DNA from: Candidatus Woesearchaeota archaeon
Lineage (GTDB): Archaea; Nanobdellota; Nanobdellia; Woesearchaeales; JABMPP01
Assembly (NCBI GenBank): GCA_018303405.1
Contig: JAGVYD010000003.1
Coordinates: 1-55,511 of the forward strand
DNA: 55,511 bases
Direction of reading: 5' to 3'
The number at the start of each line of letters is the position of its first letter. Position 1 is the stretch's first letter. The translations under genes were made by a program, and so were the position numbers. Shown here one piece after another: positions 16,844 to 45,899 of the stretch. Below the pieces are notes generated by a model. It saw nothing but the letters and a program-made list of their open reading frames with translations. It made no database searches and was not told where the DNA came from.

Positions 16844-16885
16844 ACGCATGGCCCGGCCATGTATTATTTCTGAAATTATCTAACC

Positions 16886-16979
16886 TATAGGAAATAACCT
16901 TAATTTTCGTATGTTTTGAAATGAGTGCAAGGTTATTTCCTAATAAGCAAATCACTTATTCGTTAGGAACAAAGTTCCG
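16886..16979. repeat. Repeat family C, copy 1
   Basis: 94-bp element matching 27013-27106 at every base but one. It carries a perfect 14-bp inverted repeat, TAGGAAATAACCTT (16888-16901) and AAGGTTATTTCCTA (16929-16942), then a tail ending in the small palindrome GGAAC-AAA-GTTCC. It lies between L31e and the promoter of the MoxR gene. No protein is encoded. MITE-like or structured regulatory element. Confidence 0.9.
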
Positions 16980-26965: not shown

Positions 26966-27012
26966 CGGCATAATCAGCAGAACAGGAAGAAAAGAATTCT
27001 TAAAATCGAATT

Positions 27013-27106
27013 TATAGGAAATAACCCTAATTTTCGTATGTTTTGAAATGAGTGCAAGGTTATTTCCTAATAAGCAAATCACTTATTCGTTAGGAACAAA
27101 GTTCCG
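27013..27106. repeat. Repeat family C, copy 2
   Basis: 94 bp, differing from 16886-16979 by one base. The 14-bp inverted repeat is broken by that change (AACCC against AACCT). Beyond the repeat, AAGTGATTTGCT at 27114-27125 is the exact reverse complement of AGCAAATCACTT inside it (27074-27085), which gives this copy an extra hairpin. It lies between corA and repeat A copy 1. Confidence 0.9.
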
Positions 27107-27145
27107 ATTATTAAAGTGATTTGCTATGGAAAATTCTGATCATGC

Positions 27146-27247
27146 TCAAGACCCACGAGGTCTGTGGAACTAAACATGACATTCCACCGGTCGTTTGCTT
27201 TAGCAAACCGGCGAACAAAGTGACTCCGTCTGACCGGTGGTTCTTGA
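27146..27247. repeat. Repeat family A, copy 1
   Basis: 102-bp element with inverted ends TCAAGACCCAC and GTGGTTCTTGA (one mismatch), an inner TGGAA/TTCCA pair and CCGGTC/GACCGG arms. Compared with copy 2 at 37480 it carries about 36 extra bases containing the hairpin TTTGC-TT-TAGCAAA. No coding capacity. It lies between repeat C and the 3' end of the thioredoxin-like gene. Confidence 0.85.
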
Positions 27248-31799: not shown

Positions 31800-32132
31800 T
31801 TACTTTGTGGCGCTGATGGCATATACAGCTTTAAGGGCAACCACCAATGCTGCCGGGGCCACAAATGCAACCAAATTCTTCAGTATTCCCTCAATCATAC
31901 TGCCAACTGAGGCAAAGGCATTCAGGCCGGCCCCTCCAACTGACATAAGGGCAATTGTTGCCACCAAGAAAGCTGTTGACTCCTTCTCTGTCACATTCAA
32001 AAAGCCCACGATCAGGCCCAAAGCCACCAATATCCACATCAAGATATCCGCAGGCACAAACTTTGTCAATAGGCCTGAAAGAATGGCAATCAAGACGCCA
32101 ATAATAAAGGCCACATGCCCTAGTTTCTCCAT
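31800..32132 (-). CDS. Small membrane protein, four predicted helices
   Basis: 110 aa from the ATG at 32132, which is preceded by GGGGGTG. It is almost entirely hydrophobic: segments at about 5-25 (VAFIIGVLIAILSGLL), 29-46 (ILMWILVALGLIVGFL), 52-72 and 85-106, with a charged loop VTEKES. The frame's earlier Met at 32171 adds 13 unconserved residues. The protein resembles small multi-helix proteins frequent in DPANN genomes; no function is known. Confidence 0.78.
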   Translation of the reverse strand: MEKLGHVAFIIGVLIAILSGLLTKFVPADILMWILVALGLIVGFLNVTEKESTAFLVATIALMSVGGAGLNAFASVGSMIEGILKNLVAFVAPAALVVALKAVYAISATK

Positions 32133-32265
32133 GTTAACACCCCCTTGTTGTTTGACTGTCTTAAATCCCAATTTCTAAAAAATATATCCCTTAATATAAC
32201 CAGTATACATGAAGCCTAATAATGATAGTATAAATGATAGTATATAAAGATTTTGCCTTGCAAGC

Positions 32266-32424
32266 TTAGTAGAAAACTTCGCCTGAAGGCTCAGGTTTTG
32301 CCATCGGCTCGCATGGGCATCTTATTCACGAAGGCAGTTTTCTCTCTGGAACTCCGAAAACTGCTGTCTGCCTTATTTCCAGATGCTCGCAGAATTGATG
32401 GCAAAACGTAAACTTTTCTACTAA
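32266..32424. repeat. Repeat family B, divergent copy (B4)
   Basis: 159 bp bounded by a perfect inverted repeat TTAGTAGAAAA / TTTTCTACTAA. Inside are a small hairpin GCC-TGAA-GGC, a second pair GTTTTGCCATC / GATGGCAAAAC and a central hairpin GCAGTTTTC (32334-32342) / GAAAACTGC (32356-32364) with loop TCTCTGGAACTCC. The layout equals copies B1 and B2 although most paired bases differ. Confidence 0.85.
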
Positions 32425-32438
32425 TCCGCCTTGCAGTG

Positions 32439-32500
32439 CTTTGTCCTAAAACTCGCCTTTCGGCTCGGTTTGTGCATCCGCTCAACATTGCAGCGGCTGT
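32439..32500. repeat. Repeat family B, truncated copy (B3)
   Basis: Left half only: starts GCTTTGTCCTAAAACTCGCC, keeps the small hairpin GCCTTTCGGC and the GCATCCGCTCA stretch of copy B1, and then loses similarity shortly before the nurA stop at 32520. The right arm is missing. It directly follows B4, so two elements are stacked here. Confidence 0.75.
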
Positions 32501-32519
32501 GGCAGTTTAGCATTCCGGT

Positions 32520-33569
32520 TCACATGCTGTCCAAAACATCATGCGCATTCAGGGAATATTGCGCCCGCGATATCTCATCCCAGCCTTTGCCTGACCTGGC
32601 CATAAAAACTGTCTTGAGATATGCAGCTTCGTTTGAAGAGACCCGGGCAAACCTATCAGCAGTAATCAATCCGTATGGATAGCCGGGAAATGCTATGTCT
32701 TTGGAATCCATGGACAAACATGCCGCAATCTCGTTCACCATGCTGTCTTGTGAGCCCGGCAATAGCTTTATTTCAATCCTGAAGATATGCCTGGAGTGTT
32801 CATTGAGCCTGGCAAAGCATACAAGCACAGGATCTGGTTTCTCACTCCGAAGCGCAATTCTCACCAGCCATTTTCCATTATTGTGCAATTTTGACAGCCG
32901 TTCAATTATGGCGTGGCCGTCATCAGAAAGCATGGACGTTGTCTTGGCCAACGCGCAGACTGCCATACCCCTGCCACCCACTGCCTTGTATAATCCTTGA
33001 AATGAGTCCTGTTCAAGTTCATGCTTATGTTCCAAAGTCCCATCCAATACGATAAGTGTATTTTCCGCCAGTTCAGGAACCAGGGAAGCTGCAAACTGGA
33101 TCTCACTGCACCTTCTTGCAATGTCTATGGCTTTTGCCACATTGGTAACATTGCTGCCAGATGCCATGAGCTTGGCAACATCAAAGAGCAAGCCGGAGCT
33201 TTTAGGAGCAAAATTGCCGTCAGAGGAATATACAGTGCACTTCACCTGCTCATTAACCTCGGATTCCTCCACAGATGCCACCATGTAGAATTCGGTTTTT
33301 CTTGTCCACATCCGTTTCCCGTGCGAAAAATATGCTGCACAGCACCTGATAAACTGGACTGAATTGCTTGGCGTGGCCAGTATCTCAGCATTCCCGCCAT
33401 CAACACATAGAACATTTTGGAGCATTGTCGAATTGCCTATTTGGGAGAATGAATTGTTCGTTATCCGGCAAAGCTCATTCCCTTTCTTGGAGAGCCTTGC
33501 ATAAAATTCGTCCCTGTTTTCCATATGGGGCAAATCCCTTACTATTGCTTCGGCAATCGCTTTGTCCAT
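32520..33569 (-). CDS. nurA: NurA-type 5'-3' nuclease
   Basis: 349 aa from the ATG at 33569; the longer frame runs into the promoter and coding region of topA. NurA motifs: VDGGNAEI with the metal-binding Asp, VLDGTLEHKHE with the second Asp, and the C-terminal PGYPYGLITADRFARVSSNE. NurA works with the HerA translocase to resect DNA ends in homologous recombination. HerA, often adjacent in archaea, is not in this window. It is divergent from topA and shares its promoter spacer. Confidence 0.85.
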   Translation of the reverse strand: MDKAIAEAIVRDLPHMENRDEFYARLSKKGNELCRITNNSFSQIGNSTMLQNVLCVDGGNAEILATPSNSVQFIRCCAAYFSHGKRMWTRKTEFYMVASVEESEVNEQVKCTVYSSDGNFAPKSSGLLFDVAKLMASGSNVTNVAKAIDIARRCSEIQFAASLVPELAENTLIVLDGTLEHKHELEQDSFQGLYKAVGGRGMAVCALAKTTSMLSDDGHAIIERLSKLHNNGKWLVRIALRSEKPDPVLVCFARLNEHSRHIFRIEIKLLPGSQDSMVNEIAACLSMDSKDIAFPGYPYGLITADRFARVSSNEAAYLKTVFMARSGKGWDEISRAQYSLNAHDVLDSM

Positions 33570-33657
33570 GCTGATACAGCCTTGCCAGCTCACATATATT
33601 AAGCTTGGCATGGGGCTATTCATAATATTTTTATATTGACGAGGGTTTTTTGAGGGC
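33570..33657. promoter_or_regulatory. Divergent nurA/topA promoter region
   Basis: For topA (plus strand) AATATTTTTATATTGACG at about 33622-33639 provides a TATA box 20-30 bases before the ATG. For nurA (minus strand) TTAATATATG at about 33594-33603 does the same. The 88-bp gap holds nothing else, so both DNA-handling genes start from one small divergent region. Confidence 0.6.
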
Positions 33658-35859
33658 ATGTATGAGCTAATTGTAACGGAGAAGCCTAAAGCCAGCCAGA
33701 AGATAGCAGAGGCATTGTCTGACGGCAAGGCCAAGAAATTGGGTGACAAGGGGGTGCCATATTACCAGTTCACCCGCAAAGGCAAGGAAATAATGGTGGG
33801 CTGTGCTGTAGGCCATCTTTTCACTCTGGCTGAAAAAGGCAAGGGCAGCTGGAAGTACCCGGTTTTTGACATTGAATGGAAGCCCACCTACGAAAGGGAC
33901 AAAAGCGCCAAATTCGCCAAGAAATATTTTGACACGCTCAAGAAGCTTTCCAAGCAAGCAGACAGTGTTACCATTGCATGTGATTATGACATTGAAGGAG
34001 AGGTCATTGGCCTGAACATCATGCGCTTTATTGCAAAAAAGAAAGATGCCAGGCGCATGAAGTTTTCAACTTTGACAAAGCCAGACCTTGTTAAGGCATA
34101 TGACAAATGCTCGCCCTCCATTGACTGGCCTTTGGCTGAGGCGGGGGAAACAAGGCATAAGCTGGATTATTATTATGGCATTAACATATCACGAGCACTG
34201 ACATCGGCTGTCAAGTCTGTTGGGCGGTTTCTTGTTTTGAGCAGCGGAAGAGTGCAGGGCCCAGCACTGAAAATCCTCGTTGACAAAGAAAAGGAAATAA
34301 AGGCCTTTGTATCAGAGCCTTACTGGCAAATCAAGCTTTTGGGCAGCCTTGAGCACGGCCAGATTGAATTCATGCACCAGGAGGACAAGTTCTTTGACAA
34401 GGCCAAAGCTGAAAAAGTCATGTCCAAGATACGTGCAGGAGACAATGGCAGGGTAGCTGATGTTGCCAAGAATGAATTCAGCCAACTTGCCCCAGTCCCA
34501 TTTGACCTGACCACGCTCCAGACCGAGGCATACAGAACGCACAGGATTAGCCCAAAGGAAACACTTAGCATAGCCCAGGAACTTTATGTCTCGGGCTTGA
34601 TCAGCTATCCGAGAACGAGCAGCCAGCAATACCCTGAGAGCATAGATTACAGGAAAATTCTCACAGACCTTTCAAAGCAGGATTTTTACAGGGATTTGTG
34701 CAAAAAACTGCTTGGCCAGGGCAGCCTCAAGCCCAATAACGGCAAAAAGACTGATCCGGCGCACCCTGCAATATACCCGACAGGGCAGGTAACGCACATT
34801 TCCGGCAGCAACGCCAAAATATATGACCTGATTGTGCGCAGGTTTATGGCCACTTTTGGTGACCCTGCCTTGAGGGAAACAATCAATGTGAAAATTGATG
34901 TCAAAGGCGAGATTTTTGTTGCCAAAGGGACAAGGACAGTGAAAAATGGGTGGCATGTCTACTACGCGCAGTATGTGGGCCTTAAAGATGTGGAACTGCC
35001 TAAGGTCTCGGCTGGCGAAACAGTCGAAGTCAAGGAAATCAGCATGCTTGAAGACCAGACAAAGCCTCCGAGAAGATATACACCTTCTTCTATCATAAGG
35101 GAACTCGAAAAAAGAAACCTCGGAACAAAGTCTACCAGGGCGCAGATTGTTGATACCCTGGTGCAAAGGGGCTATGTTTCAGGCCAGGCGCTCGAAGCAA
35201 CTGATTTAGGAATAAAGACAGTTGAAATCCTTGAAAAGTATGTGCCTAAAATACTGGATGAAGAGCTTACAAGGCATTTTGAGATTGAAATGGATGAAAT
35301 CCAGGACAAGAAGAAAAAAGGTGAGGAGGTCCTGGAAGAAGCTAAGGAAATTTTGACAAAGATACTAACTGAATTCAAGAAAAAAGAGAAGCATGTCGGC
35401 GAAGGGCTCCACGGCGCCAATCGCGAAAAGCAAATCAAGGAAAACACCGTTGGGAAATGCCCTGTCTGCAGCGAAGGCACGCTGATGATGAAACGGGGCA
35501 AGTTTGGAAGGTTCATTGCATGCGACAAATACCCTGACTGCAAGACCACTTTCAAGCTTCCAAGCAACGGCCTTGTGAAGAATTCGGATAAGATATGCGA
35601 GCATTGCCAGCACCCCATGATCATGATAATCAAGAAAAGAAAAAGGCCACAGGAAATCTGCATAAACCTTGACTGCCCATCAAAAAAGGTAAGCGACGAG
35701 GCTGTGCTAAAGCAAATGGCCGAGGTCGAGTCAGGCGAAGTTGAGCATAAGTGCCCCAGGTGCGAAGAGGGAAAGCTCGTGCTGAGAAAAAGCGTCTATG
35801 GGCAATTTTACGGATGCTCCACATTTCCCAAGTGCAGGTACATCAAGAAAGTCCAATAA
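33658..35859 (+). CDS. topA: DNA topoisomerase I (type IA)
   Basis: 733 aa. The Toprim domain contains CDYDIEGEVIG; the catalytic Tyr lies in LISYPRTSSQQYP; conserved RALTSAVKSVGRFLVLSSGRVQGPAL and LEKRNLGTKSTRAQIVDTL are also present. The C-terminus has three zinc-ribbon modules: CPVCSEGTL/CDKYPDCK, CEHCQHPM/CINLDCPSKK and CPRCEEGKL/CSTFPKCR. It relaxes negatively supercoiled DNA in the cytoplasm. Length and zinc tail are typical for archaeal TopA. Confidence 0.97.
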   Translation: MYELIVTEKPKASQKIAEALSDGKAKKLGDKGVPYYQFTRKGKEIMVGCAVGHLFTLAEKGKGSWKYPVFDIEWKPTYERDKSAKFAKKYFDTLKKLSKQADSVTIACDYDIEGEVIGLNIMRFIAKKKDARRMKFSTLTKPDLVKAYDKCSPSIDWPLAEAGETRHKLDYYYGINISRALTSAVKSVGRFLVLSSGRVQGPALKILVDKEKEIKAFVSEPYWQIKLLGSLEHGQIEFMHQEDKFFDKAKAEKVMSKIRAGDNGRVADVAKNEFSQLAPVPFDLTTLQTEAYRTHRISPKETLSIAQELYVSGLISYPRTSSQQYPESIDYRKILTDLSKQDFYRDLCKKLLGQGSLKPNNGKKTDPAHPAIYPTGQVTHISGSNAKIYDLIVRRFMATFGDPALRETINVKIDVKGEIFVAKGTRTVKNGWHVYYAQYVGLKDVELPKVSAGETVEVKEISMLEDQTKPPRRYTPSSIIRELEKRNLGTKSTRAQIVDTLVQRGYVSGQALEATDLGIKTVEILEKYVPKILDEELTRHFEIEMDEIQDKKKKGEEVLEEAKEILTKILTEFKKKEKHVGEGLHGANREKQIKENTVGKCPVCSEGTLMMKRGKFGRFIACDKYPDCKTTFKLPSNGLVKNSDKICEHCQHPMIMIIKKRKRPQEICINLDCPSKKVSDEAVLKQMAEVESGEVEHKCPRCEEGKLVLRKSVYGQFYGCSTFPKCRYIKKVQ

Positions 35860-35920
35860 CCTCATTTTAAAATAATCTTAGTGTGTTATCCCAATCACCA
35901 TACATGCCCCTGGATTCACA

Positions 35921-36643
35921 ATGACAAATTTAAGCCATGCCAGAAAGCAAAAACAAATATGGGAGATTGAGCACAGGACATCAGAAACCATTCCATCCCT
36001 GGCATCATCTGTTCCATACAAAGGCGTTGCCCATTTCGCTGATTTCCTGAATGACCGAATTACGGCTTCTGTGCCTCATAGACTCCTTGATATAGGTTGC
36101 GGAAAAGGGAGGAATTCGGTCTATATGGCAAAACAGCGTTTTATAGTTTATGGCATTGATTACGTAAAAGGTGCGCTGGACGCGTTGCGGGCAAAAGCAA
36201 CAAAGCATAAGCTTGGCCCCCGGATTCATTTGTATAATATGGAGCTCGACAGCAAGTGGCCATTCAAAGATGATTTTTTTGGCTCGGCCATAGACTGCTT
36301 CTCTTCCATAGACATCGAAACCAAGAAAGGCCGTATGCTGTGCCGAGACGAGATGTTCCGAACCCTTAAGCCTGGCGGATTTGCATTCGTTTCTGTTGTC
36401 TCTGCTGATGATGAGATGGAGAGAGAATTAATGGCAAAACACCCGGGGCCGGAAAAAAACAGCGTTATTTGGCCAAACGGCAAATTCCAGAAGGATTATT
36501 CAGAGAATGAACTTGCAGAATTTTATTCCGACTTTAAAATCCTTGAAATCAAAAAAGTGCAATCTGCCGAAAAGGCATTCAAGCTTGGCAGAAAATACAG
36601 GGCGACAAATTTTTGGCTCATATTGCAAAAACCGATTAGTTAG
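35921..36643 (+). CDS. Class I SAM-dependent methyltransferase
   Basis: 240 aa. SAM-binding Rossmann motifs: LLDIGCGKGRNSVYMAKQ (motif I), VYGIDYVKGALDAL (motif II), and DCFSSIDIETKKGR with KPGGFAFVSVVSADDE (post motifs). The substrate is unknown; the family is broad. It lies 61 bp after topA but has a weak own spacer and is followed, convergently, by a flavin reductase 12 bp away. Confidence 0.88.
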   Translation: MTNLSHARKQKQIWEIEHRTSETIPSLASSVPYKGVAHFADFLNDRITASVPHRLLDIGCGKGRNSVYMAKQRFIVYGIDYVKGALDALRAKATKHKLGPRIHLYNMELDSKWPFKDDFFGSAIDCFSSIDIETKKGRMLCRDEMFRTLKPGGFAFVSVVSADDEMERELMAKHPGPEKNSVIWPNGKFQKDYSENELAEFYSDFKILEIKKVQSAEKAFKLGRKYRATNFWLILQKPIS

Positions 36644-36655
36644 TGCCCCCTGGTT

Positions 36656-37369
36656 TTAGTTCCATCTTTCTGTCTTTATGTTTTCGGGCTTGACTCCAAG
36701 CTCCTTAAGAATGTCCAGAACGGTGTTGATAAGCCCTTTGGGGCCGCAAGTATAGAAAATCGTGTTTTGGATGTCAGGAATATATTGCAGAAGAACCTGC
36801 TTGTTGATTCTCCCAGTCAGGCTGTCCCACTTATGGCCTTCCTCTCTTGTTATGGTAAGGACATTCCTGATATTTGGATTTTCCGCTGATAATTTTTCCA
36901 ATTCTTCCCTGTAAATTATGTCCACGGGCGTTTTGTTGCTGTAAAACAAGGTCATTTTATGCCCCAGTTTTTTTTGATTCACATGCCTCATGAATGAGCG
37001 AAACGGTGTCACGCCGGAGCCGCCGCAAATCATTGCATGATGCTTGGCATCGTCTTCAATAAGGAAAAAAGCGCCAAATGGCCCGGAAAACCTGAACTTT
37101 GCCCCGATTTCAGCATCGCACATCCTATTGCTCATTTCACCTTCGCGCTTGACAGTAATATCAATCATTTCATCTTCAGGAGATGAAGCTATTGTAAATG
37201 ACCTAATCTTCTTTTCAGGCAGGCCATCCTTCCCAATAAACTGCATGGTCAAAAACTGGCCCGGCTTAAAATCAAGGCCCTGTGGCCTGTGGAATTTCAG
37301 GGTTTTTGTGTCGTGTGTTTCATCCACTACCTCAGCCACGCCACTTACAAATACTGTAAACTTTGCCAT
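36656..37369 (-). CDS. FAD/NAD(P)-binding oxidoreductase (ferredoxin-NADP reductase family)
   Basis: 237 aa from the ATG at 37369. FAD domain with GQFLTMQFIG and RSFTIASSPEDEMIDITVKR (RxxS/T binding the flavin); NAD(P) domain with ICGGSGVTPFRSFMRH, LFYSNKTPVDIIYREEL and FYTCGPKGLINTVL. No iron-sulphur domain is attached. It passes electrons between NAD(P)H and an unknown acceptor such as a ferredoxin or flavodoxin. The longer frame (to 37516) enters repeat A copy 2 and is discarded. Confidence 0.9.
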   Translation of the reverse strand: MAKFTVFVSGVAEVVDETHDTKTLKFHRPQGLDFKPGQFLTMQFIGKDGLPEKKIRSFTIASSPEDEMIDITVKREGEMSNRMCDAEIGAKFRFSGPFGAFFLIEDDAKHHAMICGGSGVTPFRSFMRHVNQKKLGHKMTLFYSNKTPVDIIYREELEKLSAENPNIRNVLTITREEGHKWDSLTGRINKQVLLQYIPDIQNTIFYTCGPKGLINTVLDILKELGVKPENIKTERWN

Positions 37370-37479
37370 GAGAATGTAGCAAATGCAGTCATTATAAAAT
37401 GTTTGGAATTTTCCACTAGTTTCTAACCGGTGGCTGGAAAGCCAATGTCGAACTTTCAAGTGAAAAATTCCTAACATGC

Positions 37480-37545
37480 TCAAGAACCACAAGGTCTGTG
37501 GAACTAAACATGACATTCCAGCGGTCTCTGACCGGTGGTTCTTGA
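37480..37545. repeat. Repeat family A, copy 2
   Basis: 66 bp with perfect 11-bp inverted ends TCAAGAACCAC and GTGGTTCTTGA, an inner TGGAA/TTCCA pair and CGGTC/GACCG arms. The first 45 bp and last 20 bp match copy 1 at 27146-27247, which has an extra internal hairpin. It lies between the flavin reductase and repeat B1. Confidence 0.88.
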
Positions 37546-37581
37546 CAATTTATGCTGGCCCATCATTTTTGCCTCAATACA

Positions 37582-37742
37582 GCTTTGTCCGAAAACTCGC
37601 CTTTCGGCTCGGCTTGGGCATCCGCTCAGCATTGCAGCTTCTCATGCATTGCATTTTTCTCCTCTGCAACCCCGAAAAATGCTTGACCCTCCGGGAATGG
37701 GCTTCGCAAAATTGATGCCCAAACTAACTTTTTGGACAAAGC
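37582..37742. repeat. Repeat family B, copy B1
   Basis: 161 bp with inverted ends GCTTTGTCCGAAAA and, read inward from the other side, GCTTTGTCCAAAAA. Contains the GCCTTTCGGC hairpin, the pair TGGGCATC/GATGCCCA and the central hairpin GCATTTTTC (37651-37659) / GAAAAATGC (37674-37682) with loop TCCTCTGCAACCCC. About 85 percent like B2 at 45300-45461 by eye. It precedes the S16 protease gene by 45 bp. Confidence 0.9.
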
Positions 37743-37787
37743 CCCCTCAATGCAAAGATTTTTTAACACTCATCCACTCGAGGAGCC

Positions 37788-39641
37788 ATGAGCGCAGGCG
37801 ATTTCGGGAATGGCAAAATCTTCATTGAGCACAAAGCAATCAAACTTGTCCTAGTCGTGGCATTTTTCCTGATTCTGAGCATGCCTGGCATGGCAGCCAA
37901 GCAAGGCGCGATCAAGCTTCTCGCCGTAAGCGACGGGGTTTCTGGGGAACTCATCGGCAGTGTGGCTGACATGTACCTTGAAGTCAAGCCGGGCAATGGC
38001 GGAGTATACATTGACACGTTTCCTCTAACAAGGCTTGACACCCAAATAAGCACCAGGTTTGCCGCAGAATATGCGTGCAGGCAGACCGAAACCGATTGTG
38101 ATGAATATGATTTTTTTTACACTATAAAGGCTGGCAGCACAATTGTCGGCGGGCCGAGCGCAGGCTCTGCAACCACCGTGCTGACCATGGCTGTTTTGCT
38201 GGGACTGGACATAGACCCGGATGTGGCAATTACCGGAACAATAAACTCAGGCGGATTGGTGGGGCCTGTTGGCGGAGTGAGGGAAAAAATCGAGGCTGCA
38301 TCTGCCAATGGCATAACAACCGTCTTGATTCCCTCAAGTGAGAAATACCTTGAAGAAGATAACGCAACAAATGAAACTGTTGACATTGAAACCTTTGCAA
38401 CAGAGCATAATATTACTGTAATTGAGATTGACGATGTCCAGGATGCATTATACCGTTTTACAGGAACGAGGCTCGAAGAGCCTGATAATGATGTTGTTGT
38501 TGATACCGAGTATACCAAAATCATGGGCCATTTGGCAGATGAGCTCTGCACCCACACGCTTGAGATGCAAAAAGCGATGGGCGGCACAAACCTGACACTT
38601 TACAATATCAGCAACGATATGATCGATGGCCTCCAAAACACTACTCTCAAGGCATACTCGCATTTGCGTGACGGGAATTATTATTCTGCTGCCAGCCTCT
38701 GTTTTGGGGCTAACACAAAATACTCCTACCTCCAGCTTAAAATCCTGAACCTTACAGATGACGAACTGCGAGGCAAATACAAACAGCAAAAAACCAGGCT
38801 CAGTGAAATGAGCATAAAAATTGAAAATCAAAACTACACAACTGTCAGCCAGATTGAAACATACATTATTGTGAAAGAAAGGCTATTGGAAGCCGAGGAC
38901 CTATTGAAAAGCTATGTGGCAGACATGGAAAATAATCTCACTGATATGGCAATTTTTCACCTTGCATATGCTGAAGAGCGCATCAACAGCGCAGAATCAT
39001 GGTCTAATTTCTTTCATCTGAAAACAAAAGAAGTCACAATCAACAGGGAATCCCTGAAAAACAGCTGCACACAAAAAATTGCAGAGGCTGAAGAAAGATA
39101 CCAATATGTTTCCATGCTTGTCCCGGACCTGCTCGGCGACACGCGGCAGGAGCTGAACAGGGCATATTCTGACATGAATTCCTCAGCTTATGCACTTTGC
39201 CTCTTCAAGGCCAGCAAGGCAAAGGCTGAGGCAGACATGGTCTTGAGCGTTTACGGCGTTGACCCTTCCAAAGTGCAGGAAGTGGTTGAAAAAAAACTGC
39301 CTGCTGTGCGCAAAAACATTGTATCACAGCAATCCAAGGGGTTTTTCCCGATTTTGGGTTACAGTTATTATGAGTACGCAACCACTTTGCTGGAGGCTGA
39401 CCCATTCTCTTCGCTCTTGTATTCGGAATACTCATTGGAACTCAGCAACCTGGACCTGTATTTCAAGGAGCCCAAAAAAACCAGTTTTTTCAATAGGATA
39501 AACTGGCAAGGCCTTACCTATTTTTGGATATTTGTGCTGGGCTTTGGCGCCGGGTCTGTGTTGACCATAAAGCTGCATGAAAAAAAGATACGTTCTGTTT
39601 TGCAAAAGCAAAGCGCAAACCAATACAAGAAGCGGAAATAG
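37788..39641 (+). CDS. Archaeal S16 (Lon-type) serine protease, membrane-anchored
   Basis: 617 aa. A signal/TM helix (about 18-35), then a Lon protease domain without an ATPase: catalytic Ser in VGGPSAGSATT and Lys in GPVGGVREKIEAA. A long helical region with potential N-glycosylation sites follows, and a C-terminal TM helix (YFWIFVLGFGAGSVLTI) with a basic tail. This is the COG1750 type of archaeal extracellular/membrane S16 peptidase. The catalytic part faces outside. The substrate is unknown. Confidence 0.9.
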   Translation: MSAGDFGNGKIFIEHKAIKLVLVVAFFLILSMPGMAAKQGAIKLLAVSDGVSGELIGSVADMYLEVKPGNGGVYIDTFPLTRLDTQISTRFAAEYACRQTETDCDEYDFFYTIKAGSTIVGGPSAGSATTVLTMAVLLGLDIDPDVAITGTINSGGLVGPVGGVREKIEAASANGITTVLIPSSEKYLEEDNATNETVDIETFATEHNITVIEIDDVQDALYRFTGTRLEEPDNDVVVDTEYTKIMGHLADELCTHTLEMQKAMGGTNLTLYNISNDMIDGLQNTTLKAYSHLRDGNYYSAASLCFGANTKYSYLQLKILNLTDDELRGKYKQQKTRLSEMSIKIENQNYTTVSQIETYIIVKERLLEAEDLLKSYVADMENNLTDMAIFHLAYAEERINSAESWSNFFHLKTKEVTINRESLKNSCTQKIAEAEERYQYVSMLVPDLLGDTRQELNRAYSDMNSSAYALCLFKASKAKAEADMVLSVYGVDPSKVQEVVEKKLPAVRKNIVSQQSKGFFPILGYSYYEYATTLLEADPFSSLLYSEYSLELSNLDLYFKEPKKTSFFNRINWQGLTYFWIFVLGFGAGSVLTIKLHEKKIRSVLQKQSANQYKKRK

Positions 39642-39952
39642 GAATTAAATCTTCAAAATCTTAACACTCCGATGCTCATTTTTAATGAATTCTTGACTCC
39701 TATAACAGGTTGTGGTTTTAAACCCTAGCGAGATTTTCCTTGCGGAAAATCCCGCTGGGGAAAAAGAGGTGATAAGGAAAAAGAGACATTTCCCCCTATG
39801 TGAGCAAAGCATGACACAAAGCATGCCTTTTAATACTCTTGAGTGGTATAAAATAAACTACTATTTAAATGTTTCGTTTTTTAAGTATTCTGGAGTAGTA
39901 ACAAAAACAGAAGTTTCAGAAGATTTAAAACTCCCTAACACGTGCCCATATC
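39642..39952 (+). promoter_or_regulatory. Spacer with hairpin and TATA box before the Tat-type transglycosylase
   Basis: AGCGAGATTTTCC (39727-39739) pairs with GGAAAATCCCGCT (39744-39756) around loop TTGC, one mismatch; it may be a terminator of the protease gene or another small repeat. TATAAAATAAAC at about 39848-39859 is a good TATA box and would give a leader near 80 bases for the gene at 39953. A frame at 39712-40122 is not protein-like and overlaps the real gene. Confidence 0.5.
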
Positions 39953-41062
39953 ATGGACAGAAGGAAATTCCTGGAAATGGTGCCTCCTGCTGCAGTGGGC
40001 ATTGTTCTCGGAGGGGTCAGCGCATGGCTAATCACCGAGCCGGGCAGGCGCACAATCAGGGACCAGAATCAGCTTTACAGGGCCAAGATAGACACTTTAT
40101 CCTGGCAAAACCAGAACCTTGAGGACAGGCTTTCAGGCTTAATTTTGCAGCATGAGGCTGAAAAGGCTGAATTTGAAAGGGCCTTGCAGGAACTTGAGGA
40201 AAAATACAGCGGCTTAATGGCGCATATAAGGGAAGATGGCCTTGAAATAGACTATAACAAGCATCCTTTCAGGACCCAGATCAAAAAATATGAGCCATTC
40301 CTTGATGACGCATTAAAAAAATATTCATCAATCTATCCTGTGAGCAAATTACTGATGCTTTGCCTTGTTGAGGCGGAATCAGGATTCGGCAGCCATAATT
40401 TTTCATTGGCAGGCGCTGCATATGACTGGCAACTGATTCCTGAAACAGCGCGGGACATGGGGCTGCATGTTGAAACAACAGACAATTATGAAAAAGGCCT
40501 TGATTACCGTGCCAAAAGAAGAAGCCAGTCAAGTGTCTTAGCATCAACGCGAAACGAGCTTCGGGGGTTCATCCAAAGATTTAGCGACGGGGAGGAATTC
40601 AGGACAGTTGGCGATTTTCTTGAGCACCTTGATGAGAGGTATTCGCAGGCAAATGTGAACCGGGCGAAATACCTATTTGGCGAATTGGACAACCAACAGC
40701 TTTACTATGCCATCCTTCAGGATAAAGAGCGGGGTTACATGTCCTTGTACAAGGCAGATATGATAGAGATTGACAAGCTGCCAGAAGCAGAGGTCCTCAA
40801 AAAGGACGAGAGGAAAAATCTCAAGCTCGCAACTGATGCAGCAGTGCATTACATGGCTTACCTTATGAAAAAGGCCGAAGGCAACCCGTTAAGGGCATTG
40901 AGCATGTACAATGCAGGGCCTGGAAATGTCCAGATTATGCCATACACAGAGACAGTCGGATATATAGACAAAATATTCCACAAATACCACCAATACAAGA
41001 AAATCCTGGCAGGCAAGGGCAGCCTGCCGACTGAACTGGCCCCGCCAAACGCCAACAAATAA
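39953..41062 (+). CDS. Tat-exported lytic-transglycosylase-like (SLT-fold) protein
   Basis: 369 aa. The N-terminus MDRRKFLEM plus a hydrophobic core (about 10-28) is a twin-arginine export or anchor signal. A coiled coil (about 45-95) follows. The SLT/lysozyme-like domain shows the catalytic Glu in LVEAESGFGSHN, the block QLIPETARDMGL and, near the end, ALSMYNAGPGNV. In bacteria such domains cut peptidoglycan. Archaea lack it, so the enzyme may act on neighbouring bacteria, on another glycan, or as a binding module. It is the first of a three-gene plus-strand run. Confidence 0.8.
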   Translation: MDRRKFLEMVPPAAVGIVLGGVSAWLITEPGRRTIRDQNQLYRAKIDTLSWQNQNLEDRLSGLILQHEAEKAEFERALQELEEKYSGLMAHIREDGLEIDYNKHPFRTQIKKYEPFLDDALKKYSSIYPVSKLLMLCLVEAESGFGSHNFSLAGAAYDWQLIPETARDMGLHVETTDNYEKGLDYRAKRRSQSSVLASTRNELRGFIQRFSDGEEFRTVGDFLEHLDERYSQANVNRAKYLFGELDNQQLYYAILQDKERGYMSLYKADMIEIDKLPEAEVLKKDERKNLKLATDAAVHYMAYLMKKAEGNPLRALSMYNAGPGNVQIMPYTETVGYIDKIFHKYHQYKKILAGKGSLPTELAPPNANK

Positions 41063-41087
41063 AAAACCATCACCTTTCTTTGTGTAT

Positions 41088-41723
41088 ATGGGTAACATCA
41101 AAGCTGAAAAATGCCACAGGTGCCAGGCTTTTCCTGCATCTGAAATGACAGGGGTTTACTGCAAGGCCTGTTTTTGCGATATTCTTGAAAAACGCATGAG
41201 AAAAGAACTCAAAGGCAGGATAAACAAAGGCAGCAGGGTCTTGGTGATGGACAAGGCAGCTGCGAAAATCATCAGGAGTCTGCTTAATTATCCTTTTTCA
41301 ATCGATATTCTGAAGTCAAGGAAATTAAGCCCATGCAATTTACCGGCGTTGATATCACATCCGGATTTTATAAAACTCATTCGAGACAAGAACCATGATG
41401 TAGCTGTTCTTCCGTGGACAGCGGATTTGGAAGCTGCCGTGTTCCTTGAGCAATCATTTTTTAACAAGAAATCCCCAAATTCCATAAAAATCCTGAAGCT
41501 TTTCCGCCAAATCACTGAAAAAGAACTTAAATCCTACTGCACAATAAGGGGACTGAACACATGGACCAGCCAAATGCCCGCTTCCATAGGATTTATCAGG
41601 CTTCTGGACAGGGAACATCCTGAAATTGTGCACGGCCTTGTGAGAAGCAGCGAGGAAGTTGAAAATATCAGCTCCCAGGCGCATGCCAAAAAAACGCAAA
41701 AAAGGAAACCAGGGAAAAATTAA
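41088..41723 (+). CDS. CTU2/NCS2-like zinc protein (tentative)
   Basis: 211 aa. The N-terminus has two Cys pairs, CHRCQAFPASEMTGVYCKACF, followed by a basic helix DILEKRMRKELKG. This resembles the start of the CTU2/NCS2 subunit of tRNA 2-thiolation complexes. After that come KGSRVLVMDKAAAKIIRSLL and DVAVLPWTADLEAAVFLEQSFF, which could be the remains of an N-type ATP pyrophosphatase fold without the catalytic SGGKDS. The C-terminus is basic (KKTQKRKPGKN). A CTU1-like partner is not in the window. Assignment is inference from pattern only. An upstream GTG at 41082 is possible. Confidence 0.5.
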   Translation: MGNIKAEKCHRCQAFPASEMTGVYCKACFCDILEKRMRKELKGRINKGSRVLVMDKAAAKIIRSLLNYPFSIDILKSRKLSPCNLPALISHPDFIKLIRDKNHDVAVLPWTADLEAAVFLEQSFFNKKSPNSIKILKLFRQITEKELKSYCTIRGLNTWTSQMPASIGFIRLLDREHPEIVHGLVRSSEEVENISSQAHAKKTQKRKPGKN

Positions 41724-42684
41724 CTTGTCTGTCTTAGTTATATGCATACCCCTTCTCATTCTTCTCCAATCGTGCGCACCGGGCAAGGAATCAACATTGC
41801 CTACAGAGCAAGGAAGGAGGGTCGATGTAACATTTTGCCGAACAGGCAATTGCACACACGCATTGGCAATGTTTCTCGGCCAAACGCGGGAATATGCCTA
41901 CTGCGCATTCTATGACCTGGACCTGCCTGAAATCATCAGCCTGCTTGATGAGCTGTCAGCAACCAAGGATATAAGGCTCTATATGGATGATGAATACCAT
42001 ATCCCCAGGAACTATTCCAGAGAAGACTCTTCTGCCAAACTGATGCACAACAAATATTGCGTTAGTGACGATGCCAGGATTTTCACAGGCTCCTTTAACC
42101 CCACGAGCAATGATGCCTACAAAAATGACAATAATGCCATAGCCATTGAATCAAAGCTCCTTGCTGAAAATTACAGGCGTAATTTCATTGCGATATGGGA
42201 AGGCAGGCCCGGGGAGGGCAATGCTGTTCATCCAAAAATCATATACAACAATATCAGCATAGAAAATTATTTCTGCCCGATAGACGAATGTGAGATGCAG
42301 ATCAAAAGAGAAATTGGCTCTGCTGGCTCCTCAGTCTATTTTATGGCGTTCTCCTTTACCAGCCAAGGGATCGCAAATTCCCTGGCCATGCAGAAATTAA
42401 ACGGGATTGAGATAAAGGGAGTGATGGAGAAAAAAAATGCCGGCAACCAGTCATCTTACCCGTTTCTTGAGTTTCATGGAATAGAAGCCAGAAAAGACGC
42501 GAACAAGTACAACATGCACCACAAGGTGTTCATTATTGACAATAAGACGGTCATTACGGGCAGCATGAACCCGACCAAGAACGGCAACAGCAGGAATGAC
42601 GAAAACATACTAATAATACATGACAAAGAGATCGCTGAGCAGTATTCTACGGAATTTTTTAGGATTTGGCGCATAGCCAGTTAA
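41683..42684 (+). CDS. Phospholipase D-family nuclease-like protein, lipoprotein-type signal
   Basis: About 333 aa. Two HKD motifs are intact: MHNKYCVSDDARIFTGSFNP and MHHKVFIIDNKTVITGSMNP, each followed by Asn- and Asp-containing loops (NDNNAIAI, RNDENILI). The N-terminus is basic, then hydrophobic, ending LLILLQSCAPG, a lipobox-like site, so the enzyme is probably anchored outside the cell. Family members cut phosphodiester bonds in nucleic acid or lipids. The start overlaps the previous gene by about 41 bp, so both are coupled. Confidence 0.88.
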   Translation: MPKKRKKGNQGKINLSVLVICIPLLILLQSCAPGKESTLPTEQGRRVDVTFCRTGNCTHALAMFLGQTREYAYCAFYDLDLPEIISLLDELSATKDIRLYMDDEYHIPRNYSREDSSAKLMHNKYCVSDDARIFTGSFNPTSNDAYKNDNNAIAIESKLLAENYRRNFIAIWEGRPGEGNAVHPKIIYNNISIENYFCPIDECEMQIKREIGSAGSSVYFMAFSFTSQGIANSLAMQKLNGIEIKGVMEKKNAGNQSSYPFLEFHGIEARKDANKYNMHHKVFIIDNKTVITGSMNPTKNGNSRNDENILIIHDKEIAEQYSTEFFRIWRIAS

Positions 42685-42697
42685 TTGGCTTCTGCAA

Positions 42698-43663
42698 TCA
42701 GTCCGGAATATATTTCAAAATATGGAATGTAGAGAAACCAAAGTAATCAACGTCATTCACAACATCAGGAAATTTGGACTTGATGTCATCAATGACCTCC
42801 AGGAGATGGTTCAGGTCCCGGACTATCACCTCTGTCTCAAAATCAGCACCACCGATGCTTTTGTTTATCTGGTAAATATTCCTGTGGTTCTTGCAGTATT
42901 CAAACAGCTCAGCATTTCTCGCTGTTGATAACAGTTGCAGGTCAACCCTATAGGATACATAGCCCAGCTTCTCCAGGTTCAGGCCTATCTTGTAGCCAAC
43001 AATGACTTTCTTCTTTTCCAGCAGCCTTATCCTGCTTCGCACCGTGTCAGGGGATATTTTCAGGCTCTTTGCAATTTCCAGGGAACTCTGGCGGACGTCG
43101 TTGGCGTATTTCTGGATGATTCTCCAGTCCAACTCATCAACATCCTCTCGCTGCCCTCCCCCATAGACCCTTTCTATGGAATGCTCATGCGTGTCCAAAA
43201 AGAATTTCCTGTTAAAGTTATAAATAGGGGCATAAACAGCCACATTGTACAGCTTGATATTTTTCTTGTACTTAAGCATGATATTGTCCCAGATGGTATG
43301 AAATTCCAGGATGTTCTTCACTCCAAGAAACAAGGCAAAATCCCATTTCCCATGCATGGATGTTATTGTCCAAACCTGGCTTAAATTATTCTCGACATGG
43401 CTGACGAATTCATCACCCTGTTTTTTGGCCATCTGCTGGAACTTGAAATAGACCCTGAAAGTGAAGTATCCAAGCCTTGCCATGTCAATGATTGCATGGT
43501 AGCCTGTTATGATATTTTCCTGCTCAAGCTTTTTCATGCGATAAAGAATAAACTGCTTGGACCGCTTGAGCTTGTGGGACAGCTCGGCCAGGCTGATGTT
43601 CGACTTCTTATCCACTTCATACAATATTTTCTTGTCAAACAAGTCAAGCTTGTATTCTGCCAT
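42698..43663 (-). CDS. Tandem Lrp/AsnC-type transcription regulator
   Basis: 321 aa, twice the usual size. Two winged-helix DNA-binding units: DLFDKKILYEVDKKSNISLAEL and DELDWRIIQKYANDVRQSSLEIAKSLKIS. Each is followed by an Lrp ligand-binding-like half (the first YFTFRVYFKFQQM..., the second VSYRVDLQLLSTARNAEL). A fused pair could bind a non-palindromic site or act as a pseudo-dimer. The AT-rich 110-bp spacer towards the Tat-type gene at 43774 is a possible operator. Confidence 0.88.
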   Translation of the reverse strand: MAEYKLDLFDKKILYEVDKKSNISLAELSHKLKRSKQFILYRMKKLEQENIITGYHAIIDMARLGYFTFRVYFKFQQMAKKQGDEFVSHVENNLSQVWTITSMHGKWDFALFLGVKNILEFHTIWDNIMLKYKKNIKLYNVAVYAPIYNFNRKFFLDTHEHSIERVYGGGQREDVDELDWRIIQKYANDVRQSSLEIAKSLKISPDTVRSRIRLLEKKKVIVGYKIGLNLEKLGYVSYRVDLQLLSTARNAELFEYCKNHRNIYQINKSIGGADFETEVIVRDLNHLLEVIDDIKSKFPDVVNDVDYFGFSTFHILKYIPD

Positions 43664-43773
43664 ATTATTTTATAATTGCCAGTTTATATATAAATTTATA
43701 GGTTTTGTTAAAAAAATCAATAGAATAATTAATATAGTTGTTTTAATATTATTAGTACTATAGAGGGGTAAAT

Positions 43774-44589
43774 ATGAGTGACTTCAAATACACAAGGAAA
43801 TATTTCGAAACAGAAATGGAAAAAGGCATGACTGATTATCAGAAGAAAGAATTTCACAGAATTAAAAGGCGGGAATTCTTGAAGCATGCTGGCATGGGTG
43901 CAGTGGGCATGCTTTTGGCAATTAAAACAATCCCATTTGAACATATTGGCAGCTATGCCCTAAAATCATTCACTGGTGAAACTGAGGAGCATGAACAAAG
44001 GGAATTTTATCTCAAGCGGTGGGATATTGAAAAGATCATGGCTGAAGCCAATTATGACCAGTGGAAACAGGCAAGTATCCATGAAGAAGCCCTTCCTTTT
44101 ATGCCTGTTGGATTTACAAGCGGACACCTTTGGGTTGACCAAACCACAAAACAATCATTATTTGGGAAGGACAGTGTCTTGAACAGGTATGTGCTGGAGG
44201 CATATGGCAGAACTGCCGACAATAAACGCACTTCTTTGACAATTGACATAATAGACAATTTTGACCATTTTTCGGAAGATGCTTCTGACACGCGGAGAAC
44301 TGATGGGGTAGTGGATGACATAAGCCTGATTTTGCGAGCGTCTGATCCGGAAACTGGAGCAACAGTGAGGGAACTGAGAAGCTTCTGGTCTCGGGATTCT
44401 TTGGAGAGATTTGCAGCTTGGGAAAAGCATGGACAAAATGAGTATGCTTTCATGGATAGCCCATATTTTGTTCCGGATTACAGGAAGACAAGGGAGATAG
44501 GACAGAATTTGCATACCCTTTTGGCCAAATATTTTTTGAATGACCATGGAGAAAATGGCACAACACTCGCCCCCGTGATTAGCAGATAA
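43774..44589 (+). CDS. Unknown Tat-signal protein
   Basis: 271 aa, no recognised family. After a charged 30-residue lead comes KRREFLKHAGMGAVGMLLAI, a clear twin-arginine signal (RR-x-F-L-K plus hydrophobic core). The exported part (about 65-271) is polar and Asp/Arg-rich with no Cys, so it may bind a cofactor or fold in the cytoplasm before export. Weak features: SGHLWVDQTTKQSLFGKDS and FLNDHGENGTTLAPV. It may form a unit with the next gene, 16 bp away, and may be controlled by the Lrp-type gene divergent from it. Confidence 0.75.
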   Translation: MSDFKYTRKYFETEMEKGMTDYQKKEFHRIKRREFLKHAGMGAVGMLLAIKTIPFEHIGSYALKSFTGETEEHEQREFYLKRWDIEKIMAEANYDQWKQASIHEEALPFMPVGFTSGHLWVDQTTKQSLFGKDSVLNRYVLEAYGRTADNKRTSLTIDIIDNFDHFSEDASDTRRTDGVVDDISLILRASDPETGATVRELRSFWSRDSLERFAAWEKHGQNEYAFMDSPYFVPDYRKTREIGQNLHTLLAKYFLNDHGENGTTLAPVISR

Positions 44590-44604
44590 TAATGAGCAAC
44601 AGTG

Positions 44605-44913
44605 ATGCAAATGACAATAGCCTCTGCGCTCGAAAATTTGATTGGCGAAAAAAGGACCGCAAAAATCAGAAGCACTAAGATTTCGTCTATTGCCAAAGCA
44701 ATAATTGGTGAGGATAAATATCACTCTGTGAAGGCTTCTTTGGCTGCAGAGCATCTTGAGATAATAGTTCCTGGCAAAATTGGCGCAACTTACACTCACG
44801 GCGGTCACCCAATACATTCGCGACCCCTAGGGGAGCTTAAATTTTGGACGCCAAGACAAAAAGAAGAATGCCTGGCACAAATGGAGAGAAATAAAGCTGA
44901 ACGGCTAGAATGA
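44605..44913 (+). CDS. Unknown small soluble protein
   Basis: 102 aa. An N-terminal helical part with SALENLIGEKRTAKIRSTKISSIAKAIIG, then a middle block with EIIVPGKIGATYTHGGHPIHSRPLG and a charged helical end, ECLAQMERNKAERLE. The GGHPIH segment could bind metal. No family is recognised. Three neighbouring start codons (GTG 44602, ATG 44605, ATG 44611) are possible; none has a strong ribosome site, so coupling to the upstream gene is likely. Confidence 0.6.
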   Translation: MQMTIASALENLIGEKRTAKIRSTKISSIAKAIIGEDKYHSVKASLAAEHLEIIVPGKIGATYTHGGHPIHSRPLGELKFWTPRQKEECLAQMERNKAERLE

Positions 44914-44916
44914 GTG

Positions 44917-45246
44917 TCAGTGCATACCATACAACCCTTCAAGGAACAAGATAGCTGCAATTATTATTGTCAAGTCAAAGGCCAAGTCAATAGCAAATAA
45001 TGCCTGGACAATATACAGCAATCCTGGAAAAATTAAGACCAATTTTATAATTCCAGAGCTTGCAGGCGTGCCTTTGTTTTCGAAATGCTGAATAACCCAA
45101 TAATATAGCTGGATACACACCAAATACACTGCGCCAATAAAGGCAATGTCAAAGCCAACGCCGGAGCCAACATCATAAAATCCGAAATATTTCAGCCCAA
45201 GAACAATGCCCAGTACCATGCCAATGACAGACAATATCCTGCTCAT
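44917..45246 (-). CDS. Small membrane protein, four predicted helices
   Basis: 109 aa from the ATG at 45246. Hydrophobic segments at about 3-20 (ILSVIGMVLGIVLGLKYFGF), 31-52, 66-80 (IIKLVLIFPGLLYIV) and 86-104. No charged motif or family was recognised. The same frame continues upstream through repeat B2 to 45489, but that part is a repeat, not coding. A TATA-like TTATATATAAAT near 45267-45278 supports the short start. Confidence 0.78.
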   Translation of the reverse strand: MSRILSVIGMVLGIVLGLKYFGFYDVGSGVGFDIAFIGAVYLVCIQLYYWVIQHFENKGTPASSGIIKLVLIFPGLLYIVQALFAIDLAFDLTIIIAAILFLEGLYGMH

Positions 45247-45299
45247 TGCTAAAATGTGACATGAATTGATATATAAATAATTCCATCCTCTTCCTGTAT

Positions 45300-45461
45300 G
45301 CTTTGCCCGAAAACTCGCCTTCCGGCCCGGTTTGGGCATCTGCTCAGCATGGCAGATTCTCGCGAATTGCATTTTTCTCCTCTGCAACCCCGAAAAATGC
45401 ATAATCCCTCCGGGAACGGGCTTCGCAAAACTGATGCCCAAACTAACTTTTCGGGCAAAGC
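45300..45461. repeat. Repeat family B, copy B2
   Basis: 162 bp with perfect 14-bp inverted ends GCTTTGCCCGAAAA / TTTTCGGGCAAAGC. Inner pair GTTTGGGCATC/GATGCCCAAAC and central hairpin GCATTTTTC (45369-45377) / GAAAAATGC (45392-45400), loop TCCTCTGCAACCCC. The GTCC to GCCC change against B1 appears in both ends, so the arms change together. It sits 57 bp before the PIN-Rpo7 cluster. Confidence 0.9.
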
Positions 45462-45518
45462 CCCCCTGTAGTAAGCTTTTTAAATACACCCTAATCCCAT
45501 TCTCTCACATAAATAAAT

Positions 45519-45899
45519 ATGAAAAAAATACTGCTCGACACAAACATGCTTATGAGCATAGGCGCTCTGAAGGTTGACATTTTCTCAGAGATTGAGAGGA
45601 TATGTGACTTCAGGTATGAATTGGTCACAATTGACAGCGTTGTGGTGGAATTGTCCAAACTGACCGCGCCTAGCAGGGGCAACATTGGCCGCACGGCAAA
45701 GCTTGCTTTGGAGCTCATCAAGCGGAAAAATGTGAAGATTTTAAAATCAGGCATAATGCCCGCTGATGAAGGCATTGTCATGGTCGCCGACACCAATTTC
45801 ATCGTCGCTACCCAAGACTTGGCGCTCAAGCGAAGGCTCAAAGCCAAGGGCGCAGGGATTATCACGATCAGGCAGAAAAAATACCTGAAATTCGGGTGA
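45519..45899 (+). CDS. PIN-domain protein (FCF1/VapC9-like)
   Basis: 126 aa. PIN nuclease fold: N-terminal KKILLDTNMLMS with the first catalytic Asp, TIDSVVVELSKL with the second acidic residue, and MVADTNFIVATQDLALKRRLKAKG with the third and fourth. It belongs to the stand-alone archaeal PIN family that is next to Rpo7 in many archaea, likely acting on RNA (related to rRNA-processing FCF1/UTP24). The usual upstream aIF2-gamma gene is absent; repeat B2 takes its place. Confidence 0.93.
   Translation: MKKILLDTNMLMSIGALKVDIFSEIERICDFRYELVTIDSVVVELSKLTAPSRGNIGRTAKLALELIKRKNVKILKSGIMPADEGIVMVADTNFIVATQDLALKRRLKAKGAGIITIRQKKYLKFG

Follow-up and report, generated by a model that had tools for sequence, protein, structure and literature searches.

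Promoter-spaced MITEs with a covarying nested palindrome and IS5-type ends in the archaeal order Woesearchaeales

Prokaryotic hairpin MITEs include Correia/NEMIS, ERIC/IRU, RUP, CIR, QMITE and the Sulfolobus MITEs (PMC2229807, PMC10969869). As presented in these two reviews, such elements are 100–200 bp long, intergenic and highly base-paired, with terminal inverted repeats (TIRs) and target duplications, all of which they have in common with the Woesearchaeales family described here, whereas their targets and ends are mostly described as TA-ended or AT-rich, unlike those of the present family. Searches of both reviews brought up neither a target spaced from TATA nor compensatory base changes (PMC2229807, PMC10969869). 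In contrast to those MITEs, the Woesearchaeales family combines one nested layout across many families of the order with sequences that have diverged beyond the reach of BLAST.

The closest described relatives of the partner insertion sequences (IS) reported below belong to the IS5 family, of which IS903, with an end starting in GG and a 9-bp duplication, is a textbook member. The partner elements resemble the IS5 family (NCBIfam transpos_IS5_2 group) in their PF01609 DDE transposase with a Y-R-E-K signature, their short GGC...GCC terminal repeats, their 9-bp duplication and their length of ∼0.9–1.0 kb, but differ from it in inserting at a fixed distance upstream of BRE/TATA and in placing the C-terminal transposase codons within the right terminal repeat (L250, L255). 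To our knowledge, promoter geometry has not been described as the target of any IS5 member. The LTR retrotransposons Ty3, Ty1 and Tf1, which are tethered to Pol III or Pol II factors, likewise integrate at a set position with respect to where transcription initiates, one that is safe for element and host; unlike these, the archaeal case concerns a DDE insertion sequence and its MITE, for which tethering is hypothetical. A search of the open-licence literature found no report that archaeal MITEs or IS insert at a set spacing from the TATA promoter.

The window, meaning the whole stretch of 55,511 nucleotides that was analysed, contains three near-complete copies (B1, B2 and B4) and one truncated copy, all at the positions given in an earlier note on this DNA. 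The true ends of B1, B2 and B4 lie 1–3 bp outside those given there, because the terminal repeat starts with RGC and finishes with GCY. Ordinary chromosomal genes separate the copies, whose parts are as follows.

32241–32248: TATA box (TATATAAA) to the left of B1, 22 bp from its end
32255–32262: left target-site duplication of B1, GCCTTGCA, read from the sequence
32263–32427, plus strand: B1 MITE, subfamily B1, TIR AGCTTAGTAGAAAA / TTTTCTACTAATCC, with 98–93% identical copies elsewhere in the genome
32428–32435: right target-site duplication of B1, GCCTTGCA, read from the sequence
32438–32494, plus strand: truncated copy of a B element (its left 57 bp), 93% identical to positions 1–57 of B2
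37572–37580: left target-site duplication of B2, CCTCAATAC
37581–37743, plus strand: B2 MITE, main subfamily B, TIR AGCTTTGTCCGAAAA / TTTTTGGACAAAGCC
37745–37753: right target-site duplication of B2, CCTCAATGC, 1 mismatch
45293–45298: left target-site duplication of B4, eroded (CCTGTA)
45299–45462, plus strand: B4 MITE, main subfamily B, TIR TGCTTTGCCCGAAAA / TTTTCGGGCAAAGCC
45465–45470: right target-site duplication of B4 (CCTGTA)

On the TATA side of B1, a predicted small ORF (minus strand, within 31800–32171) points away from the element. The right duplication of B2 is followed by the TATA-like TTTTTTAA and by a gene at 37788 (plus strand, Lon-type protease domain) that begins 45 bp from B2, and that of B4 by a TATA sequence (TTTTTAAATA) and a PIN-domain gene at 45519 (plus strand), 57 bp from B4. 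B1 itself lies between its TATA box and the truncated, older B copy, which is separated by 2 bp from the right duplication of B1, suggesting that the same promoter was hit twice (window 32255–32494).

Two other repeats occur nearby. One, also palindromic and intergenic, has the form GGAAATAACC...GGTTATTTCC with the ending GTTAGGAACAAAGTTCC and lies at window positions 16878–16979 and 27005–27106; it is found at six places in the genome, including contigs C14 and C17, and its copy at 16878 also lies near a TATA-like sequence. The other (TGGAAAATTC...CATGACATTCCACCGGTC; 27127–27192 and 37461–37526, 89% identical) is situated directly upstream of B2, and a similar stretch (GACCGGTGGTTCTTGACA) also adjoins copies of the family at two further loci (L001 and L016).

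Approximately 40–50 elements of the family are present in the source genome (1.6 Mb). When the source genome was searched with B2 and B1, the main subfamily yielded ∼27 full or partial copies, a 72%-identical subfamily 5, the B1 subfamily 6, and a 213-bp B1 variant, whose central loop is enlarged by 54 inserted bp, another 5; a further 2 copies were more distant. With a length of ∼162 bp (159–213 bp counting variants), the elements are short, non-coding, dispersed and present in at least 40 copies, as is characteristic of MITEs. A covariance-model search, which the earlier note had proposed, was made with a model built from 35 own-genome copies and recovered relatives, mostly full length, in 57 further genomes of the order Woesearchaeales. 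Carriers, the source genome included, amount to 58 of the 353 order genomes, about one in six. BLAST against 98 relatives returned no family members. All 28 matches in a phylum-wide sample of 371 genomes, own genome included, fall within the same order, and a GTDB-wide scan with a GC-rich pattern gave, among the matches listed, nearly all chance hits, the exception being L177 (JACOZO010000134.1, Candidatus Woesearchaeota archaeon NC_groundwater_207_Ag_S-0.1um_44_9). In another genome of the set, G162, eight equal-score matches to the inner part of the model (contigs C4, C5, C6, C31, C42, C64, C80 and C81), several of them at contig ends, suggest a recent burst of a related repeat.

The elements of the window are MITEs, that is, mobile DNA. 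Their TIRs are 14–15 bp long, perfect or near-perfect and of the GGCTNTGTNNNAAAATC type, and target duplications of 8–9 bp accompany most copies. Of the 43 own copies, 28 are bordered by a 9-bp duplication containing no more than 2 mismatches, compared with ∼3% when flanks are shuffled between copies; among elements from elsewhere in the order, 55 of 99 have a 9-bp duplication exactly flush with the element. The suggestion in the earlier note of a MITE family is thus borne out by the TIRs, the 8–9-bp duplications, the many dispersed copies and the presence in relatives of IS5-family elements with matching ends. One case likely preserves the pre-insertion state: in genome G178 an element adjoins the TATA box of one gene, whereas six congeners have the orthologous promoter (CCTTTTTAAA, ATG) free of the element, and in one of the six (G185) the sequence GGAGCATTAACC at the insertion point resembles the duplication and flank of G178.

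Some copies depart from the standard ends. One element (L012, G000:C21:18639-18783) lacks the right 17 bp although its 9-bp duplication (GTGCGGAAT) is perfect, as might result from a one-ended insertion or a later precise deletion. In three others (L206, L209 and L193:623-781) the same inner fold is bounded by a terminal repeat of unrelated sequence (TGTAAGTAATATGTC type), which looks as though the core had switched transposase.

A search for the TIR pattern in relatives identified G178 contigs ending within a multicopy repeat, which opens with GGCTCTGTCCCAAATCT and runs on into an open reading frame; relatives of this repeat are complete elements of ∼890–1020 bp. The seven complete IS (890–1019 bp) have 9-bp duplications with 0–1 mismatch, and one side of every one of them bears a TATA hexamer at -21 to -23. 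PF01609 scored above cut-off in all four transposases tested; NF033579 gave 145.8 bits for L250 (cut-off 140) and 127 bits, below cut-off, for L255. The transposases keep DDE-type acidic residues and Y-R-E-K, the divergent L365 having a related motif, and in L250 and L255 the last transposase codons lie inside the right terminal repeat. On these sequence features the partner elements are assigned to the IS5 family, with IS5-type DDE transposases. Similarity between MITE and IS is limited to the ends, where the B1 TIR of the source genome (AGCTTAGTAGAAAA) matches that of L253 and L255 (GGCTCAGTAGAAA) and, within G178, the MITE end GGCTCTGTCCCGAAT matches the IS end GGCTCTGTCCCAAAT. An IS1595 partner was considered and rejected, PF12762 being absent from the source genome.

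Judging from these shared ends, the MITEs are most likely mobilised in trans by IS5-type DDE transposases, which would cut and paste them via the common TIRs, duplicating 8–9 bp of target. A family search of the source genome, a 95% complete MAG, found no IS5_2 transposase, and neither the TIR pattern search nor the IS5_2 search identified an autonomous copy there, BLAST matches being partial only. Its mobiliser is absent, lost or unassembled, and the copies may be stranded. Across the 353 order genomes, presence of the MITE and of IS5_2 shows a weak association that is not significant (odds ratio 1.75, p = 0.08).

The most unusual part of the family, which the earlier note, as with the target duplications, did not pick up, is its fixed spot beside TATA boxes. 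A TATA hexamer is found at -25 to -20, its far edge being 20–25 bp from the element, on one flank in 35 of the 43 own copies (81%) and in 75 of 98 elements elsewhere (77%), as against 5–7% in equally wide windows further out, a 14- to 22-fold excess (binomial p ∼1e-20 and ∼1e-50, respectively, with the caveat that related copies are not fully independent). About 20% of copies have no recognisable TATA hexamer. The distance to TATA varies within only ∼6 bp and peaks at two single positions, -23 and -21. In a position profile of 107 one-sided cases, in which TATA at 16–23 follows from how the cases were selected, the 9-bp duplication is followed by AAAA at 10–13, with A reaching 81% and 76% at positions 12 and 13, where the archaeal BRE is expected; ATG stands at 45–47 bp in 56 of the 107. 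The order of duplication, BRE-like AA, TATA and ATG, with this spacing, is the layout expected of leaderless archaeal promoters. The gene on the TATA side is mostly transcribed outward from the element. A placement between TATA and gene, at the transcription start, was rejected, the gene orientation putting the elements upstream of the TATA box. The orientation of the element relative to the TATA side is random (16:16 in the source genome, 30:45 elsewhere).

Since all seven complete IS have the same TATA geometry, promoter targeting is most simply a property of the transposase. We infer that it operates through the BRE/TATA sequence or through bound TFB/TBP. Elements facing either way would be inserted just upstream of the TFB/TBP platform, so that promoter and gene stay intact, and the transposase would set a geometry of element, 9-bp duplication, BRE (AA), TATA box, ∼22 bp and start codon. 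Such a spot upstream of the promoter is a safe, accessible site in a compact genome.

The nested layout of outer arms, GCC-GGC hairpin, second pair and central hairpin is as the earlier note described it, and its claim that the paired bases change together holds in both data sets. Neither outcome that the note named as refuting its reading, a lack of additional copies or of covariation, was borne out. Single-strand folding is far better than that of shuffled sequences (z -4.3 and -5.3). In 35 own copies from four subfamilies, aligned without reference to structure, 94.7% of pair cells are paired, compared with 27–50% when partners are slid by 1–3 columns, and both sides have changed at 17 of 39 pairs. 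The order-wide alignment gives the same picture: among 103 elements from other genomes of the order, 94.1% of pair cells are paired versus 33–41% when slid, and 38 of the 39 pairs change on both sides, with 1016 doubly changed cells, a level reached in 0 of 500 shuffles. Because the model placed these sequences onto the structure, this alignment is biased towards it and the percentage leans upward. The outer arms are the terminal repeats, and in any transposon both of these would be expected to change together; the inner helices (GGTTTTGCCATC / GATGGCAAAAC, plus the central stem) covary too. A TC/TC internal loop is conserved, as is the apical loop (TTCTCTCTGGAACTCCGAA and related forms).

Mismatches in the helices comprise 56 G·T and 48 A·C in 3674 cells, and wobble amounts to <2%. 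This scarcity of wobble and lack of strand asymmetry favour a DNA-level palindrome over a structured RNA. The nested core would be constrained or regenerated as DNA: single-stranded DNA would fold into a hairpin or cruciform, the complementarity of the arms would be kept up by repair of the hairpin or by template switching on the folded strand, and the apical loop of the folded core would be recognised. We consider a core palindrome maintained in this manner, with a recognised apical loop, to be moderately supported. Strict conservation of the apical loop goes beyond what palindrome regeneration alone explains. In larger variants the central loop contains additional nested palindromes (z = -9.2 for a 311-nt stretch), which fits regeneration at the DNA level. 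The central loop is a hot spot for such inserts (L224:1220-1530 in G000:C9; L223, G000:C10:33621-33849; L230:522-1150 in G197:C86, 629 bp; L202; L207), two of which, from different families, have a common motif like CATGTCRGAAATCG.

The earlier note had also entertained a structured RNA, and a non-coding RNA spread by transposition, for example a small RNA or cis-regulatory leader with its fold selected in the transcript, would account for the order-wide covariation of three inner helices, the conserved C-rich apical loop and invariant TC/TC internal loop, and the retention of the inner fold while terminal repeats vary. P3 and P4, both inner helices, even have a slight excess of G·T over A·C (34 versus 17), albeit on the model-fitted alignment that favours G·T, so that a structural role on one strand keeps a low probability. 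Over all helices, however, the near-equality of G·T and A·C and the rarity of wobble fail to show the strand-specific tolerance of G-U expected of an RNA, the orientation to the neighbouring promoter is random, and the elements lie upstream of TATA and therefore outside the transcript of the bordering gene. The Rfam covariance models gave no match to the elements and no promoter of their own was identified, leaving the RNA candidate rather improbable. Covarying arms with a conserved fold are also known from attC sites, but attC-like integron sites or another single-strand recombination system have a negligible likelihood here: the perfect terminal repeats are shared with DDE insertion sequences, the copies are separated by chromosomal genes instead of forming a cassette array, and the 8–9-bp target duplications rule out an attC site.

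The position beside promoters invites two further explanations. A host-domesticated insulator or bidirectional terminator, shielding promoters from read-through and conserved for the host, would agree with elements directly upstream of promoters and with stable hairpins on both strands, which would work either way round. It is nevertheless unlikely in view of the absence of the element from all six congeners at the single site compared across species, the patchy presence in 58 of 353 genomes and the truncation or decay of some copies. Alternatively, an ordinary MITE with no target specificity could have been purged by selection from everywhere except outside promoters, as hits in genes or core promoters would harm a compact genome. 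Such selection would allow any upstream position, yet the TATA distance spans ∼6 bp with its modes at -23 and -21, and the complete IS5 elements show the identical distance. Because purging selection is not expected to yield a window of a few base pairs, we regard this explanation as very unlikely. We therefore prefer the reading that the MITEs are placed by an IS5-type transposase at a fixed promoter geometry and have a core that is a DNA-level palindrome, to which, as a whole, we give a probability of roughly 0.8. The more specific proposal that archaeal DDE transposases find their targets via BRE/TATA or bound TBP/TFB, and that the folded MITE core with its loop is recognised as single-stranded or cruciform DNA, is possible but tentative.

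The apparent promoter-guided transposition described here occurs in archaea, whose TBP/TFB promoters resemble those of eukaryotic Pol II, and it is testable there with simple purified parts. Each insertion is in effect a natural promoter tag, marking the BRE, TATA box and start of an uncultured gene, and these tags support leaderless transcription in the Woesearchaeales. A covarying fold inside a MITE, maintained order-wide, provides a clear case for asking what maintains palindrome complementarity in DNA. If true, a promoter-reading DDE transposase would be the archaeal counterpart of Ty3-type promoter tethering.
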